Shown: positions 3,377-10,510 of the stretch, piece after piece | Position numbering within the stretch: the stretch's first letter is position 1 | How the letters are laid out: the number at the start of each line of letters is the position of its first letter | Assembly (NCBI RefSeq): GCF_000152745.1 | Contig: NZ_CH672428.1 | Span: forward strand, 616,916 to 680,915 | Direction of reading: 5' to 3' | DNA: 64,000 nucleotides | DNA from: Oceanicaulis sp. HTCC2633 | Lineage (GTDB): Bacteria; Pseudomonadota; Alphaproteobacteria; Caulobacterales; Maricaulaceae | Program-made: the position numbers and the translations under genes | The notes under the pieces: model-generated | Told to the model about the DNA's origin: nothing | The model's input: the letters and a program-made list of their open reading frames with translations, nothing else | Databases searched by the model: none

Positions 3377-3514
3377 CTAGTTGCGGTTTTCCTCGGCGGT
3401 GTCCTCAATCGCGTCACCAGCTTCTTCAATGTCGCGACCGGCGCCCGCAATCGTGTTGCAGCCGGTGAGGATCAGCGTGGACACGGCCAGAGCGCAAAGC
3501 ATAGCGTACTTCAT
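3377..3514 (-). CDS. Entericidin-like small lipoprotein
   Basis: This is a 45-residue lipoprotein precursor. It has a signal sequence, the lipobox LTGC with Cys19, and a mature part NTIAGAGRDIEEAGDAIEDT, which is the hallmark of the entericidin A/B family. The mRNA has AAGGAGG 7 bases before the ATG. An exact EcfG promoter lies 30 bases upstream, inside the gap after the sensor kinase gene. In enterobacteria these peptides are membrane-anchored and linked to stationary phase; a role in envelope stress here is inference. Confidence 0.88.
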   Translation of the reverse strand: MKYAMLCALAVSTLILTGCNTIAGAGRDIEEAGDAIEDTAEENRN

Positions 3515-3543: not shown

Positions 3544-3568
3544 AACGAACCAGACCATCAGAGGTTCC
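3544..3568 (-). promoter_or_regulatory. EcfG promoter for the entericidin-like gene
   Basis: On the minus strand GGAAC is followed after exactly 16 bases by CGTT. It sits between the kinase stop codon and the small lipoprotein gene. Confidence 0.88.
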
Positions 3569-3574
3569 CTGTAC

Positions 3575-5275
3575 TCAGCTCTTTTCTTCGCCAACCCGCA
3601 GCACAAAATCCATACCGCCTTCAGCATTGGCCTCAGACCAGGTTTCACCGTCCACCTGCATGGCGAACGCCTCCATCAGGGACGACCCTGTGCCCTGAGA
3701 CGCCGTATCAGACATGCCCACGCCATCATCACGGATGCGCAAGGTCAGATCCTGCGCCGAGCTGGCAGTCAAAGACACGATAATGCGCCCGCTATTGCGG
3801 TCCTGGAAGGCATGCTTGTAGGCATTGGTGACCGCTTCAGTGACGAACAGGGCGATCGGAACAGCCGTATCAGGCTCAAAGGCGACGTCCTCACACTCGG
3901 CCTGGACAGAGATTGATCGTGAACCGTCATCACTGACCTGTTGCAAGTTCATGGCGAGCTCTGACAGGAAGCCGGGCATGTGCACCGCGCGCAAATCATC
4001 AGCCTCGTACAGGCTCCTGTGAACGAGCGAGAGCGCATTGATCCGCCGGCGCGCCTCCATGAGCGCGGAGCGCCCCTCCCCATCGGCCATTCGGCCCGCC
4101 TGCAGGTTGAGCAGGCTCACAATGATCTGCAGGTTGTTCTTCACCCGGTGGTGGATTTCCCGAAGCAGGGCGCCGCGTTGCTCCACCGAGGCCTCCAGCT
4201 CGCTGTGTTGCTCTTCAAGCGAGGTGGCCATTTCCGACATCGTATTCGCGAGTTCGCGTATTTCACGGGGCGCGTTCTGGGCGCGGATGGGCACAACGTC
4301 CAGACGCCCGCTGCCATACACGGCCGCGATCCGACGAAGATACCCCAGCCAGCGCAGCACGTAGTGATCCACGGCGAGCCAGACACTGGCGAGAGCCAGA
4401 GCGTACATGAGCAAAGGGATCAGGAAGGTCGCGGCGACCGACACCAGACCCCACTGTGTCACAGGCGCAGGAGATATCAGGAGAAGCGCCAGCTCATCCT
4501 CGACCAGGGGCGTCAACACCGCCGGGCGCTCACCCCCGTCCATCGACAGGCGCAGGGGTTCGGGACGGGACAATCCCTCAACCCGCCCGAGCAGGTCATC
4601 CTGCAGCTCTATCGCCACAGGCTTGAGGACACGCGCCGTATCGACTTCACGGGCTTCGGAGGGCGTCACGAGCACCACCTGACTCCCCTCGGCCACAGCA
4701 TTGTCGATCAGGTTGCGAGACGCCTGCAGCACATCAATCGCTGCGGCCGCTGCGCCTCTGAATTCGCCCTCCTGCCCCAGTCGGGAGGCGACAATCAGAA
4801 TCGGTCGTCGTGTGACGCGTCCCAGCGTCACGCCGGAAACAGAGCGTTCCGCCCCATTCTGCAAACTCTGATGCCAGTCCTCAGTACTCAGATCGAGCTG
4901 CCGGGCGTCCTCCAGGGCGGAACAGATGATCTCGCCATTGGCATTGGTCAGAGCGATATTTGTGAGAACCGTATCGCCGCCTGCAATCTGGGCCATGGCC
5001 CGACTGCAGCCGCCCGGCGCACTCATGAAAGCGAACCCGCGAGTCGATACGGCATCAATGATGCCTTGGGCCCGAGATATGGATTCATTGAGTTCTGACG
5101 CAGCAAGCGCGCCCAGAATGATCATGCGATCCCTCTGAACGCGCTGCTCTTCCCGCGCCTCGCTCCAGGTTTGCGCCATGGCGATCAGCAATAGGGGAAA
5201 AAGCGCCACAGCCAGCACCAGAGCGAGCACGAACCGCAATCGCCCGGTCATTTCCCCGCCCGGTTTGAACGGCAT
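3575..5275 (-). CDS. HisKA_2-type sensor histidine kinase, PhyK-like
   Basis: This 566-residue inner-membrane kinase has a first membrane helix at about 13-34, a periplasmic sensor of about 240 residues, and a second helix at about 276-304. A HAMP-like linker and a coiled coil follow. The phosphoacceptor motif is LLREIHHRVKNN (His375/His376), and the ATPase domain shows TEAVTNAYKHAF and DDGVGM. The HHRVKNN motif defines the HisKA_2 family, which in other alphaproteobacteria phosphorylates PhyR. It starts 3 bases after ecfG, so nepR, ecfG and the kinase form one autoregulated operon. An internal ATG at 5251 has a GGGG stretch close upstream and could be the real start. Confidence 0.88.
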   Translation of the reverse strand: MPFKPGGEMTGRLRFVLALVLAVALFPLLLIAMAQTWSEAREEQRVQRDRMIILGALAASELNESISRAQGIIDAVSTRGFAFMSAPGGCSRAMAQIAGGDTVLTNIALTNANGEIICSALEDARQLDLSTEDWHQSLQNGAERSVSGVTLGRVTRRPILIVASRLGQEGEFRGAAAAAIDVLQASRNLIDNAVAEGSQVVLVTPSEAREVDTARVLKPVAIELQDDLLGRVEGLSRPEPLRLSMDGGERPAVLTPLVEDELALLLISPAPVTQWGLVSVAATFLIPLLMYALALASVWLAVDHYVLRWLGYLRRIAAVYGSGRLDVVPIRAQNAPREIRELANTMSEMATSLEEQHSELEASVEQRGALLREIHHRVKNNLQIIVSLLNLQAGRMADGEGRSALMEARRRINALSLVHRSLYEADDLRAVHMPGFLSELAMNLQQVSDDGSRSISVQAECEDVAFEPDTAVPIALFVTEAVTNAYKHAFQDRNSGRIIVSLTASSAQDLTLRIRDDGVGMSDTASQGTGSSLMEAFAMQVDGETWSEANAEGGMDFVLRVGEEKS

Positions 5276-5277
5276 GC

Positions 5278-5904
5278 CTACCGAGCCTGTTCAGCGAGGT
5301 CGCTGACCTGATCAAGAAGCGTGTCGACGGCTTCTGAGGCGGCGATGCCATCTGAATTGGCCTTGGCGGCCGGTCCGGCCTTCATGATCCCTTCCAGAGC
5401 GAGACGCGCCCGGGACACACGGCTTTTGACGGTCCCTATCGCGCAATCGCAAATTTCAGCGGCTTCCTCATAGGAATACCCGCCCGCACCGACCAGGATC
5501 AGGGCTTCGCGCTGGTCATCAGGAAGCTCGGCAAGGCCACGACGCAATTCGTCCAGCGCCACGATCTGTTCCTGATTGTCCACTGCAGGCAGCGTGCGCT
5601 CCGCCAGTTCCTGATCCCACTCGGCCTGCCGCCAGGACCGGCGCTTGTCGGAGTAGAACTGATTGCGGACAATGGTCAGGACCCAGGCGCGAAAATTCGT
5701 GCCCGCCTTGAACTTGTCCCGTGCAGACCAGGCTTTCATCATGGCGTCCTGCGCCAGGTCGTCTGCGCTGGCCGCGTCGCCAGTCAGGCTTCGTGCGAAG
5801 GCGCGCATATGGGGGATCGCATCCGTCAGCTCTTTTCGAAACTGCGGCTGGGTCATCAATTCGGACGGCGACAGGCCGACCTTTTCTGAATCGACCTTAC
5901 TCAC
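5278..5904 (-). CDS. ecfG: EcfG-family extracytoplasmic-function sigma factor
   Basis: This 208-residue sigma factor has region 2 (DAIPHMRAFARSLTGDAASA to NFRAWVLTIVRNQFYSDKRR) and region 4 (ELPDDQREALILVGAGGYSY, then GTVKSRVSRARLAL). It lacks the extra domains of large sigma factors. It directs RNA polymerase to the GGAAC/CGTT promoters found around it. I choose the GTG at 5904, which overlaps the nepR stop by 8 bases and has an AGGCGG ribosome site. An ATG about 17 codons later is the alternative but has no ribosome site. The overlap with nepR couples synthesis of the sigma factor to its anti-sigma factor, as is usual at this locus. Confidence 0.95.
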   Translation of the reverse strand: MSKVDSEKVGLSPSELMTQPQFRKELTDAIPHMRAFARSLTGDAASADDLAQDAMMKAWSARDKFKAGTNFRAWVLTIVRNQFYSDKRRSWRQAEWDQELAERTLPAVDNQEQIVALDELRRGLAELPDDQREALILVGAGGYSYEEAAEICDCAIGTVKSRVSRARLALEGIMKAGPAAKANSDGIAASEAVDTLLDQVSDLAEQAR

Positions 5905-6115
5905 GGGCGCCGCCTTTCTGGTCGCCGCGCTTGGCCTCGCCTTCTTCGAGACGGTCAAGCAAATCGGCAAAATCGTCAGGGACGCCTTCGTCCAGCACGG
6001 AATCAAACATGTGGCGCAATCCTGCGCCAATGTTTTCCTGCTGCTTGCGGGTCCGCTGCACGAGCGAGGGATCCGGGGCGCTCCGGGCGCCATTCTTGTC
6101 CTCTGACATTGCCAT
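5897..6115 (-). CDS. nepR: NepR anti-sigma factor
   Basis: This 72-residue acidic protein has the conserved NepR core GLRHMFDSVLDEGVPDDFAD followed by LLDRLEEGE, the two helices that bind EcfG or PhyR. In the known circuit NepR holds EcfG inactive until phosphorylated PhyR takes it away. The start may be 6115 or the ATG two codons later at 6109. The gene lies directly in front of ecfG and is transcribed from an EcfG promoter, giving positive and negative feedback in one transcript. Confidence 0.93.
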   Translation of the reverse strand: MAMSEDKNGARSAPDPSLVQRTRKQQENIGAGLRHMFDSVLDEGVPDDFADLLDRLEEGEAKRGDQKGGARE

Positions 6116-6243: not shown

Positions 6244-6277
6244 TTGTACCGACATAGTTTTGTGGGGAGAGCCCAGA

Positions 6278-7051
6278 ATGAGTTTCGTTTCAGCAATTCG
6301 CGCACACATTCCCTATCTGCGCAGATATGCTCGCATCCTGACCGGTTCTCAGCAAAGCGGCGACGCTCATGTGCGCGCTTGCCTAGAAGCCGCCGTTGAA
6401 GGCAATGAAGAGCTAGGCCATGACCTGCCGCCCCAGGTCGCCTTGTTCCAGTTATTCCATGCCTGCTGGAATCCCGAACTGGATACGAGCGATCTCCAGG
6501 ATGAGGCCACCCCGCTCTCGCACGTCACCCCCAAGGCCCGCCAAGTCATGCTGCTGACATCCGTCGAGGGCTTCTCGATTGAGGATGTCGCCAAGATCCT
6601 GCGCATCGATGACGCAGAGGCCCAGTCGCTTCTGGTCTCAGCGCAACAGGAGCTGAACGCTGGTCTCGCCACGCGCGTCATGATCATCGAGGATGAGCCC
6701 GTGATCGCCCTGGATCTGCGGGCCATCGTGGAAAACGCCGGCCACAGCGTGACCGGCGTGGCAAGGACCCGGGATCAGGCCGTCGCGCTGGCGCAGAAAT
6801 CTCCGCCGGGCCTCGTGCTGGCTGACATCCAGCTCGCCGACGACAGCTCGGGCATTGATGCGGTCAAGGATATTCTTGATGAAATGAATGTTCCGGTGAT
6901 TTTCATCACCGCCTACCCTGAACGTCTTCTGACCGGTGAAAAACCCGAGCCGACCTACCTCGTGACCAAGCCTTTCATGCCGGAAACCGTGTCCGCCACG
7001 ATCAGCCAGGCCCTGTTCTTTTTCGAACGCAAGTCGGTTGCAGCTGAGTAG
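6278..7051 (+). CDS. phyR: PhyR, general stress response anti-anti-sigma regulator
   Basis: This 257-residue protein has a sigma-like domain (about 1-125) resembling EcfG and a C-terminal receiver domain (about 133-250). The receiver shows the acidic pair in MIIEDEP, phosphoacceptor Asp183 in LADIQL, Thr211 in FITAY and Lys231 in TKPF. Phosphorylation exposes the sigma-like domain, which then binds NepR and frees EcfG. The ATG at 6278 is chosen for its GGGGAG ribosome site; a longer reading from 6260 adds only six residues and loses it. It is divergent from nepR and ends in a strong terminator. Confidence 0.96.
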   Translation: MSFVSAIRAHIPYLRRYARILTGSQQSGDAHVRACLEAAVEGNEELGHDLPPQVALFQLFHACWNPELDTSDLQDEATPLSHVTPKARQVMLLTSVEGFSIEDVAKILRIDDAEAQSLLVSAQQELNAGLATRVMIIEDEPVIALDLRAIVENAGHSVTGVARTRDQAVALAQKSPPGLVLADIQLADDSSGIDAVKDILDEMNVPVIFITAYPERLLTGEKPEPTYLVTKPFMPETVSATISQALFFFERKSVAAE

Positions 7052-7184: not shown

Positions 7185-7209
7185 GGAACACATAAGCATG
7201 CTCAACGTT
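7185..7209 (+). promoter_or_regulatory. EcfG promoter for the first PRC-barrel gene
   Basis: GGAAC, 16 bases, CGTT, exact match, ending 46 bases before the ATG at 7256. Confidence 0.9.
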
Positions 7210-7255: not shown

Positions 7256-7996
7256 ATGTTGAACAAGCTGATGCTGACCACCTCGATCGCTCTGATTTCC
7301 ACCACCGCTCTGGCGACGGCGCAAGCCCAGGACGCCGGGATGCAGGCCGAGATGGAGACGAGCGCAGAAGCGACGATGTCCAGCGACATGGTCAAGGCGT
7401 CCGACATTGTCGGCGCAGACCTTGAATATGCGGACGGTGCTTCGGCCATCACGGACATTCGCATGAATGACGCCGGCGACCCGGAAGCGCTCGTGATCTC
7501 ACGTGGTGGTTTCCTGGGACTGTTTGACGAGGAAGTCGCCGTCTCCACCGTCGCCGCCAGCATCGCTCATGACGCAGAGGGCGAGCTGGTCGTCACCGCA
7601 TCTCTGACCGATGCGCAGCTTGAAGACGCCGAAGCCATCCAGGACAGCCCGTTTGTGGTCTCGATCGAAGATCAACGCGAGGATGGCGACCTGTTTTACA
7701 GCGATCTCACCGGCGCTGCGATCCTCAACGACGCCGGCGAAACCATCGCTCACCTTGAGGACGTGAAGTTCACGCTGAGCGGTGAAACCGAATACGCGAT
7801 CATCCGCGACGGCGGCTTTCTGGGCCTGGGCGGCGAAGTCGGCCTTGTCGACTTTAACGAGCTGGAACTGGCCTATTCCGCCGAAACCGGTTGGACCGTG
7901 ACGTCTGACATCACCGGCGATGACGTGCGTGTGATGGAAGAGACGCCCATCAATACCGGCGCCTATCTGGATGGCCGTCAATTCCCAAGGGGCTGA
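7256..7996 (+). CDS. Exported PRC-barrel domain protein, stress-induced
   Basis: This 246-residue protein has a clear signal peptide ending ATAQAQ near residue 25. It then has two PRC-barrel-like units, about 48-95 (ASDIVGADLEYADGASAITD) and 145-205. Each contains a GGFLGL turn (ISRGGFLGLFDEEVAV and IRDGGFLGLGGEVGLV), so the protein looks like an internal duplication. The mature part is very acidic. PRC barrels are small beta domains found in photosynthetic reaction centre H subunits and RimM; exported versions are common in alphaproteobacteria but poorly understood. A strong ribosome site (AAGGAGAG) supports the start, and an EcfG promoter and a terminator make it a single-gene unit. Confidence 0.82.
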   Translation: MLNKLMLTTSIALISTTALATAQAQDAGMQAEMETSAEATMSSDMVKASDIVGADLEYADGASAITDIRMNDAGDPEALVISRGGFLGLFDEEVAVSTVAASIAHDAEGELVVTASLTDAQLEDAEAIQDSPFVVSIEDQREDGDLFYSDLTGAAILNDAGETIAHLEDVKFTLSGETEYAIIRDGGFLGLGGEVGLVDFNELELAYSAETGWTVTSDITGDDVRVMEETPINTGAYLDGRQFPRG

Positions 7997-8304: not shown

Positions 8305-8421
8305 AACAAAGAAGCCGCCCTCATATGGAGGGCGGCTTCAAAAGCGGCTGCGCAAGGCCGTCAGGGGGAGGGTCAGCCTTCGCAGCTGGGTCGTCAATCA
8401 TCCCGGCGGGGACCGGGATAT
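8305..8421 (-). ncRNA. Candidate stress-induced small RNA, GsrN-like
   Basis: An exact EcfG promoter on the minus strand (8428-8452) fires into a stretch with no convincing protein gene. The predicted RNA of about 115 bases starts near 8421. It folds into a 7-bp hairpin with loop UCCCCG (8400-8419), then an 11-bp hairpin with one bulge and a long C-rich loop containing CCCUCCCCCU (8347-8386). It ends with a 12-bp terminator hairpin (8311-8339) followed by UUUG. Caulobacter GsrN, the known sigma-T-dependent small RNA beside the general stress locus, also uses C-rich loops that pair with G-rich ribosome sites. Homology to GsrN is inferred from architecture and location, not from alignment. A 26-codon reading frame exists inside but has no ribosome site. 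Confidence 0.7.
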
Positions 8422-8427
8422 CCGACT

Positions 8428-8452
8428 AACGCCCCGGTGCGAACGCGGTTCC
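8428..8452 (-). promoter_or_regulatory. EcfG promoter for the candidate small RNA
   Basis: On the minus strand GGAAC, 16 bases, CGTT, exact match. It lies just past the end of the FNT gene with no annotated gene downstream. Confidence 0.85.
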
Positions 8453-8468
8453 CTGAAATCTGGACTCT

Positions 8469-9272
8469 CTAATCGATTTCCTCGTGCACCTGGCCATAGG
8501 CCAGACCTGCAAACAGAGCGGCGCCGCCCAGCGTATTGCCGACAAGCACGGGCAGGATGAAGGCCAGCCCCTCCCCTGCGCCCCAGACGCCGGCGACAAT
8601 CAGGACAGTCGTTTCGACCGTCCCCGCCACGATATGCGGGAAACCGCCCGCCCCCACCAAATAGGTCACGATGAAGACCGCGCCGAGCTTCTCGTAAGGC
8701 AATCCTGGCAGCGACCAGGCCATCAGGCCAATGAGGAATCCGGCAGGCAGGGCCGAAATGAAGTTCCCCAAAGCATCCCTGTGTGTGATGTGAGAGGATG
8801 CTGAGACCATCGCCTCGAACAGATCCGGCTCGGTCACATGCGATAGCACAGCCCCGATGGCGACCGCGCCAACGAGATTGCCGAACAGGACAATCGCCCA
8901 CAACCGCCCCAGAAGACGGACGGAGCGCCAGCGACGATTCTTGGTGACCGGCAGGACCGCGGTCAGCGTATTCTCCGTGAAGAGCTGCATGCGGGCCATG
9001 GCGATCAGAAGAAAGCCCGCCGGGTACCCCACGGCGATCGCCAGCGAGCTCCAGGACGCGTCTCCGACCGCTTTCTCGATCGCCCCCATGAGCAGCACGG
9101 ACGCGCCCATGGCCAGACCGGCTGTCAGCGCCGAGTACAGCAAGGAGCTGGAGGGGCGAAGCAGCTCTTCCTTCCCGGTCTCCGCAATGACGGAATAGAG
9201 GGTTTTGGACGCAATTTCGCTGCGCGCCGCAAGTCGCTTGGCGCGCAGCTCATGATCAGTTTTCTTTGACAA
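8469..9272 (-). CDS. Formate/nitrite transporter (FNT) family membrane protein
   Basis: This 267-residue protein has six predicted membrane helices after a basic cytoplasmic N-terminus of about 40 residues. The FNT fold is suggested by the spacing of helices and motifs such as AIAVGYPAGFLLIAMARMQL, LFTENTLTAVLPV and IVAGTVETTVL. FNT pentamers conduct small monovalent anions such as formate, nitrite or hydrosulfide. The long N-terminus resembles the YfdC branch, whose substrate is unknown. The start is a TTG at 9272 with an AAGGGT site upstream. It is the last gene of a five-gene unit driven by the EcfG promoter at 10486-10510. Confidence 0.85.
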   Translation of the reverse strand: MSKKTDHELRAKRLAARSEIASKTLYSVIAETGKEELLRPSSSLLYSALTAGLAMGASVLLMGAIEKAVGDASWSSLAIAVGYPAGFLLIAMARMQLFTENTLTAVLPVTKNRRWRSVRLLGRLWAIVLFGNLVGAVAIGAVLSHVTEPDLFEAMVSASSHITHRDALGNFISALPAGFLIGLMAWSLPGLPYEKLGAVFIVTYLVGAGGFPHIVAGTVETTVLIVAGVWGAGEGLAFILPVLVGNTLGGAALFAGLAYGQVHEEID

Positions 9273-10485: not shown

Positions 10486-10510
10486 AACGCATCGACCCTC
10501 AACAGGTTCC
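10486..10510 (-). promoter_or_regulatory. EcfG promoter for the DUF1328-to-FNT operon
   Basis: On the minus strand GGAAC, 16 bases, CGTT, exact match. It diverges from the dps promoter across an AT-rich spacer (10511-10647). Confidence 0.9.

Follow-up and report, generated by a model that had tools for sequence, protein, structure and literature searches.

Here, we describe a predicted gene for a small RNA driven by the sigma factor EcfG and located beside the general stress response locus of Oceanicaulis sp. HTCC2633, on the minus strand of the 64,000-nucleotide stretch analyzed (referred to here as the window). An initial annotation had proposed such an RNA with a C-rich loop; the proposal was borne out by conservation and by a controlled survey of stress loci, so that the EcfG-driven gene now appears well supported by its sequence, its conservation, and the survey. 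In our opinion, the product probably acts in trans, as a small RNA that belongs to the EcfG (general stress) regulon, is transcribed from its own promoter in the 3' flank of a formate/nitrite transporter (FNT) gene, and pairs through a seed with G-rich ribosome-binding regions.

The promoter (positions 8452-8428, minus strand) is an exact match to GGAAC-N16-CGTT, as had been noted from the sequence at the outset. Nine such exact N16 boxes are present in the window, where 0.40 is expected (none of 100 shuffles reached nine), and all of them are located between positions 1.3 and 13.5 kb, in the surroundings of the genes assigned through Pfam as phyR, ecfG, and the sensor kinase; the two boxes with an N17 spacer are a number reached by 7 of 100 shuffles. 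The locus comprises phyR (6275..7051, plus strand; PF22029 and PF22233), an open reading frame containing the EcfG sigma factor (5278..6093, minus strand; PF04542 and PF08281), and, adjoining ecfG, a gene for an HWE/HisKA_2 sensor kinase (3575..5275, minus strand; PF07568 and PF07536). Directly upstream of the small RNA and on the same strand is the FNT gene (8469..9272, minus strand; PF01226, E 2.9e-38), which ends GAAATCGATTAG and closes a gene cluster, presumably one operon, with an exact EcfG box of its own ahead of it (10486..10510, minus strand). The box of the small RNA starts 16 bases past the FNT stop codon (8471-8469). Thus, the stretch previously described as gene free is indeed without a gene but is the 3' flank of a gene on the same strand, and because of this, the terminator of the small RNA can also end the FNT mRNA. 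Further along the minus strand, there is no gene for the promoter to drive; the next gene, encoding a PRC-barrel protein (7256..7996, plus strand; PF05239), is oppositely oriented, converges on the small RNA, and has its own EcfG box (7185-7209).

Elsewhere in the locus, an exact EcfG box (3544-3568) precedes an unlisted 45-codon lipoprotein gene (3377-3514, minus strand; MKYAMLCALAVSTLILTGCNTIAGAG...), the product of which is presumably entericidin-like. The EcfG site downstream of the kinase had been suspected to be the place of gsrN; in the window, it leads into this lipoprotein gene, and in 14 relatives, similar or other small genes come next.

With transcription assumed to start ~6 to 8 nt after CGTT, the predicted RNA is ~115 nt long (about 8422-8306, minus strand). 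Its predicted fold consists of two hairpins and then a terminator, in agreement with the initial annotation, and has a minimum free energy of -59.4 kcal/mol (z score of -6.8; 0 of 200 shuffles were as stable). Hairpin 1 (8399..8420, minus strand) has a predicted loop with CCCC, and hairpin 2 (8347..8386, minus strand), with 13 predicted pairs in the window, displays a 13-base loop, ACCCUCCCCCUGA (8361..8373, minus strand), which we propose as the seed on the basis of its conservation in three species. The intrinsic terminator (8307..8339, minus strand), recognized by folding and by a pattern scan, has a 12-bp stem (8339-8311) and a modest T-tail, TTTGTT; the region shows no excess of terminator-like sites (4, against an expected 3.2). 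The 10-mer ACCCTCCCCC occurs three times in the 3.17-Mb genome, twice in hairpin loops ahead of terminators.

It is extremely improbable that the product is a small protein. The window does contain an ATG frame of 26 codons, named in the initial annotation as the feature that selection might be keeping instead, but this frame is lost in both congeneric species that carry the RNA: there is no ATG before the terminator in one (G014), and in the other (G007), the corresponding ATG is followed immediately by TGA. No Shine-Dalgarno site is found at a suitable distance from the frame, and two long overlapping frames gave only short, weak tblastn matches.

A plain DNA search of 61 relatives with the small RNA stretch returned some match at an E value of ≤1 in 60 of them, and only two, both in congeneric species, were judged to be real (G014, 1.6e-16; G007, 5.8e-6). 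In both, the gene order of the window is kept: the copy follows FNT and is located downstream of phyR, with the promoter 14 nt from the FNT stop (16 nt in the window), and all three genomes have PhyR. In a hand alignment of the three species, the -35 and -10 cores are invariant (9 of 9 positions), while the spacer is invariant at 3 of 16 positions. The loop region of hairpin 2, GAYCCUCCCCC(C)UGAC, is invariant at 14 of 16 positions, with five tandem C residues in the window's genome (G000) and in G007 and six in G014. Hairpin 1 is invariant at 13 of 22 positions, with 83% of its cells paired in the alignment. Two C-rich loops had been claimed initially; the one in hairpin 2 is conserved, whereas the loop of hairpin 1 keeps only CCC. 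The terminator stem is paired in 100% of the cells, and its tail in G014 is weak (ATTATG). The syntenic copies fold with z scores of -6.4 (G014) and -3.9 (G007), and hairpin 2 of G007 is predicted to be weaker, with fewer pairs and with inner loops. Three pairs of hairpin 2 show a change on both sides; this number of two-sided changes was equalled in 17 of 500 shuffles, and the covariation score was equalled in 28 of 500. With three sequences, the covariation in this hairpin is thin and suggestive only, and the facts that there are only three close copies and that close relatedness alone preserves sequence were counted against the conservation argument.

A covariance model built from the three copies (R1) scored its own sources at 132.5, 117.3, and 109.7 bits, as expected by construction, with the next match at 25.2 bits. 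Among the 137 genomes of the family, only the three source genomes had matches below an E value of 1e-20 (best other, 6.7e-5), and 37 had a match at an E value of ≤0.1. The weak matches beyond the three copies were taken for terminators and noise, with the exception of that in G023 (E 0.0076), which coincides with an EcfG site close to phyR. In g1, the genus of the window's genome, 10 of 15 genomes are without a PhyR match at an E value of ≤1e-30, and therefore, the general stress response seems to be patchy or lost among close relatives; the best R1 match in these ten genomes has an E value of 0.025.

The rule applied in a survey of stress loci required, downstream of an EcfG box, a terminator and an unpaired stretch of pyrimidines that includes six or more C residues. 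Of the 68 loci covered, one was the initial 20 kb of the window; the other 67 were phyR-centered stretches of useful length, 58 from the same family (six genomes gave two each) and 9 from outside it, among which a single stretch is from the family bearing GsrN, the stress-induced small RNA discussed below. Of the 336 EcfG boxes in these loci, 47 were accompanied by a terminator and 8 also by a C-loop, and the eight loci with a C-loop RNA (window, G014, G007, G023, G017, G034, G076, and G026) represent five genera. By the same rule, 60 of the 68 loci have no such RNA. For 25 scrambled motifs, 483 sites were found, of which 88 had a terminator and 2 had a C-loop, one of the latter being the GsrN of G054, whose -10 element is TGTT. 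Fisher tests returned p values of 0.003 per terminator-bearing site, 0.014 per site, and 0.04 with one per genus, which are optimistic because the cutoffs were set after the first examples had been viewed. A looser scan additionally found an RNA in G078, outside the set defined by the survey rule, and missed those of the window and G007. The C-loop RNAs vary in their stems, strand, and distance (for example, G017 and G034 have theirs at +3.1 kb on the same strand, and G026 at -2.9 kb); what persists seems to be the promoter with the C-loop, whereas stems, strand, and position change. It is conceivable, at somewhat less than an even chance, that they represent a "moving" small RNA module of the Caulobacterales stress response, in which the EcfG promoter and the C-rich loop are kept and stems, strand, distance, and neighbors are replaced, GsrN being the Caulobacteraceae case and the window RNA another. 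With only promoter and C-loop kept, such a class would escape ordinary homology searches.

The survey also bears on a simpler reading, according to which the stretch is only the 3' end of the FNT operon, the hairpins and terminator stabilizing or ending the FNT mRNA and the EcfG box being incidental or giving a by-product. The location of the RNA directly behind FNT, on the same strand and with a terminator, would suit this reading, but we consider it unlikely, since the EcfG cores are kept while the spacer diverges, scrambled motifs rarely precede such RNAs, and the C-loop stretches of G017, G034, G023, and G026 are without an FNT match (tblastn, E ≤1e-5).

The initial annotation had called the RNA GsrN-like. 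According to Tien et al. (2018, PMC5869019), BLAST detects GsrN in no family other than the Caulobacteraceae, and the candidates in other groups were picked mostly for their position and promoter; its six-C 5' loop pairs with the katG leader; and its gene lies away from the stress locus in C. crescentus and typically close to it in others. As a stand-in for GsrN sequences, a search for EcfG boxes with C-runs yielded an element common to the genomes of f3, the GsrN-bearing family, which belongs to the same order as the window's genome but is another family, and a scan of named genomes followed. The element was found in 83 stretches (Caulobacter, including C. vibrioides T5M6, Brevundimonas, Phenylobacterium, and unclassified bins) and is preceded by an EcfG box in all 80 of these that were tested; judging from lineage, promoter, length, and C-run, we take it to be GsrN. 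In 75 of the 86 stretches carrying this putative GsrN, phyR is matched on the same strand at a distance of 0.7-2.2 kb upstream. The earlier statement that Caulobacter GsrN also lies beside the stress locus agrees with these stretches and not with C. crescentus, for which PMC5869019 gives a distal position.

A covariance model of GsrN (R2) was built from 25 sequences, L168 and 24 of 31 non-redundant ones; the latter came from 63 in which a T-run was clear, out of 80 inspected (83 in total). At an E value of ≤0.01, R2 had hits in 5 of the 6 f3 genomes; in the window's family, all 37 genomes, the whole of G000 included, were without a hit. The GsrN model search suggested at the outset as a check thus gave no match at this cutoff in G000. 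When R2 was run unfiltered on 301 bases around the RNA, the best match (18.0 bits) covered hairpin 2 and the terminator, C-loop on C-loop. Over 19 loci (58.6 kb, unfiltered), the window RNA ranks fourth (E 0.053), after the C-loop RNA of G034 (23.7 bits, E 0.0042) and two matches that are not C-loop RNAs, one in L129 and one at another place in L119. The model scores 17.9 bits (E 0.054) at the RNA of G017, 16.0 bits (E 0.13) at that of G014, and 7.7 bits (E 5.3) on G007.

These matches raise the question of whether the RNA is a true GsrN ortholog, that is, the fast-evolving descendant of a gsrN gene that was located near phyR in the Caulobacterales ancestor. R2 aligns stem, C-loop, and terminator in register in the window, G034, G017, and G014; the 5' arm of hairpin 2 in G014, GCTGCGGAGG, is identical to a GsrN arm; the C-runs have GAC behind them with no more than one base in between; and both RNAs lie near phyR, the box in the window being 2.2 kb from the phyR start and hence close to phyR-nepR-ecfG. 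Nevertheless, orthology appears doubtful to us. Two of the three R2 matches that outrank that of the window are not C-loop RNAs, and no match at an E value of ≤0.01 exists in G000. The window and G014 RNAs align with GsrN in register (GCTGCG.AGG and C-run), but 38% and 16% of shuffles, respectively, reach the alignment score, and G007, with its low R2 score, does not align at the place of the C-loop. In a Smith-Waterman comparison of 12 RNAs with GsrN, 1 (G028) was at p<0.05, and not at the C-loop. The window RNA is on the strand opposite to phyR, the reverse of the putative GsrN elements, and is without an inner hairpin, and its C-loop, CCCUCCCCC, is in the second hairpin rather than being a run of six tandem C residues in an exposed 5'-hairpin loop. 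As to katG, neither gene of G000 has a run of four G residues within 160 nt upstream of its likely start, and one of the two katG genes of G014 has GGGGG at -62; katG was thus not supported as a shared target. The weak R2 match, the shuffle result, the reversed strand, and the katG leaders without G-runs together make the RNA GsrN-like in design and not a demonstrated GsrN. The shared design holds: both GsrN, as described in PMC5869019, and the window RNA have an EcfG/sigma-T promoter, a length of about 100-115 nt, a hairpin with a C-run loop, a terminator, and, for GsrN usually, a position near phyR. GsrN differs in having its seed in the 5' hairpin, an inner hairpin, six or more C residues, and the katG leader as a target, as well as in its strand in the stretches seen, and its sequence match to the window RNA is not significant. 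Descent from GsrN is a minority view, and the GsrN-like label holds for the design.

The design is also reminiscent of other alphaproteobacterial RNAs. The alpha-r14/NfeR1/cuckoo RNAs (PMC10746234) display an anti-Shine-Dalgarno C-rich loop on hairpins with variable stems; they have three hairpins each with CCUCCUCCC and, for NfeR1, an RpoD signature, whereas the window RNA has one CCUCCCCC loop and an EcfG promoter, and CCUCCUCCC is absent from its predicted sequence. The alpha-R8/SisA-D RNAs of Caulobacter (PMC12559287) similarly combine a short C/U-rich seed with a terminator, have several siblings per genome, and pair near start codons, but they are commonly located beside an N-formylglutamate amidohydrolase gene, and their 10-mer, UUUCCUCCCU, is in a single-stranded stretch; this core is absent from the predicted RNA. 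In an Rfam search of the window at the gathering score, only a tRNA matched. A weak full-length match of alpha-r7 (RF02342) to the window RNA (21.7 bits, E 0.02) is far below the cutoff of 60 and absent among the matches for G014 and G007, and this identity was rejected. No report of this RNA was seen among the papers listed in searches of open-licence literature, which concerned GsrN and the stress response with EcfG in two sister-family genera. C-rich, CCUCC-bearing loops could also bind proteins, and the RNA might be a protein sponge or a titrator of Hfq or the ribosome, with its C-loop binding protein or ribosomal RNA and not mRNAs. We rate this even lower than the FNT reading, since for comparable RNAs, pairing with G-rich sites on mRNAs is described (GsrN, PMC5869019; SisA, PMC12559287) or predicted (alpha-r14, PMC10746234).

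Similar EcfG-driven hairpins were seen away from a phyR match in g14 (4 of 6 genomes), in g15, and, without a T-run terminator, in G010. In a pattern search of the 137 family genomes, 15 genomes had a total of 17 matches (control, 9), of which L126, L129, L131, and L134 proved on reading to be coding or leader sequence. Order wide, there were 32 matches in 30 of 299 genomes (control, 5); 12 of the 30 genomes belong to f4/g31, and their matches look like GC-rich repeats. Some G010 loci (such as L278, L282, L285, L287, and L289) are dispersed palindromic repeats, CCCCACCCCGACCCTCCCCC(G/A)AGGGGGAGGGAGGGG, with similar GC-rich matches in f4 g31. Genus g7 (L048 in G076, L050 in G078, and L125 in G080) has a very long EcfG-driven hairpin with C-rich loops ~4.3-4.5 kb upstream of phyR. 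In the window's genome and its two congeners (L144 in G000, L132 in G014, and L143 in G007), an EcfG promoter leads into a 5' leader whose C-run lies in a predicted hairpin, possibly a cis leader with the same kind of C-loop, directly ahead of a gene starting M(N/D)xLKDLYIDQLQDLYSADKQ, which we take to resemble YciF/DUF892. Finally, two tandem hairpin-terminator elements are found on the opposite strand behind a gene that resembles dps (L274/L283, at G000:C1 about 2843141; L269; L250). They are present in three species, with a loop that differs in G014 and with no Rfam match at the gathering score; one loop is CUCCUCCCC, like that of the EcfG-driven g14 RNAs L121-L124, and the other is ACCCUCCCCCU, as in the window seed. 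Since the same loop 11-mer occurs in the dps-side element of the window's genome, such siblings could share targets.

The seed loop CCCUCCCCCU is complementary to AGGGGGAGGG. The sequence GGGGGAGG is found 3-12 nt before an ATG 12 times in G000, 14 times in G014, and 9 times in G007, compared to 7, 4, and 4 times for the backward pattern; one G007 site is counted twice in these numbers, and one of the G000 matches comes from the strand complementary to the dps-side hairpin. The excess is modest, and GGAGG before ATG, an ordinary ribosome site, is expected anyway. The search for G-rich leaders, also suggested at the outset, thus produced sites common to two or three species but only a modest excess over the control. 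The sites shared by all three species stand before long frames for a 151-amino-acid protein (L261) and a 213-amino-acid protein (L267), neither with a Pfam match, and those shared by G000 and G014 precede genes for a TonB-dependent receptor (L272) and a DctP-type solute-binding protein (L252). The predicted duplexes between loop and leader at the shared sites range from -18.8 to -24.5 kcal/mol.

Under stress, PhyR frees sigma-EcfG from NepR, and in Oceanicaulis, this release would allow sigma-EcfG to transcribe the ~115-nt RNA from the promoter recognized in its sequence. In the predicted fold, hairpin 2 would hold the conserved loop open as a seed, and with Hfq, the gene for which is present in the genome, the loop may pair with G-rich stretches at or near ribosome-binding sites, for example, those ahead of the TonB-dependent receptor and the DctP solute-binding protein. 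The most likely effect on a target would be repression, and activation, as for GsrN and katG, would also be possible; in its design, the RNA would work like GsrN.

In summary, the survey of 68 loci is new here, with eight C-loop RNAs found behind EcfG boxes and two behind scrambled motifs, and the work yields concrete loci, seeds, and predicted targets. A rule consisting of promoter, C-loop, and terminator finds such RNAs at the stress loci of five genera in a sister family of the Caulobacteraceae, and therefore, the alphaproteobacterial stress response may commonly have a post-transcriptional arm that sequence searches overlook.
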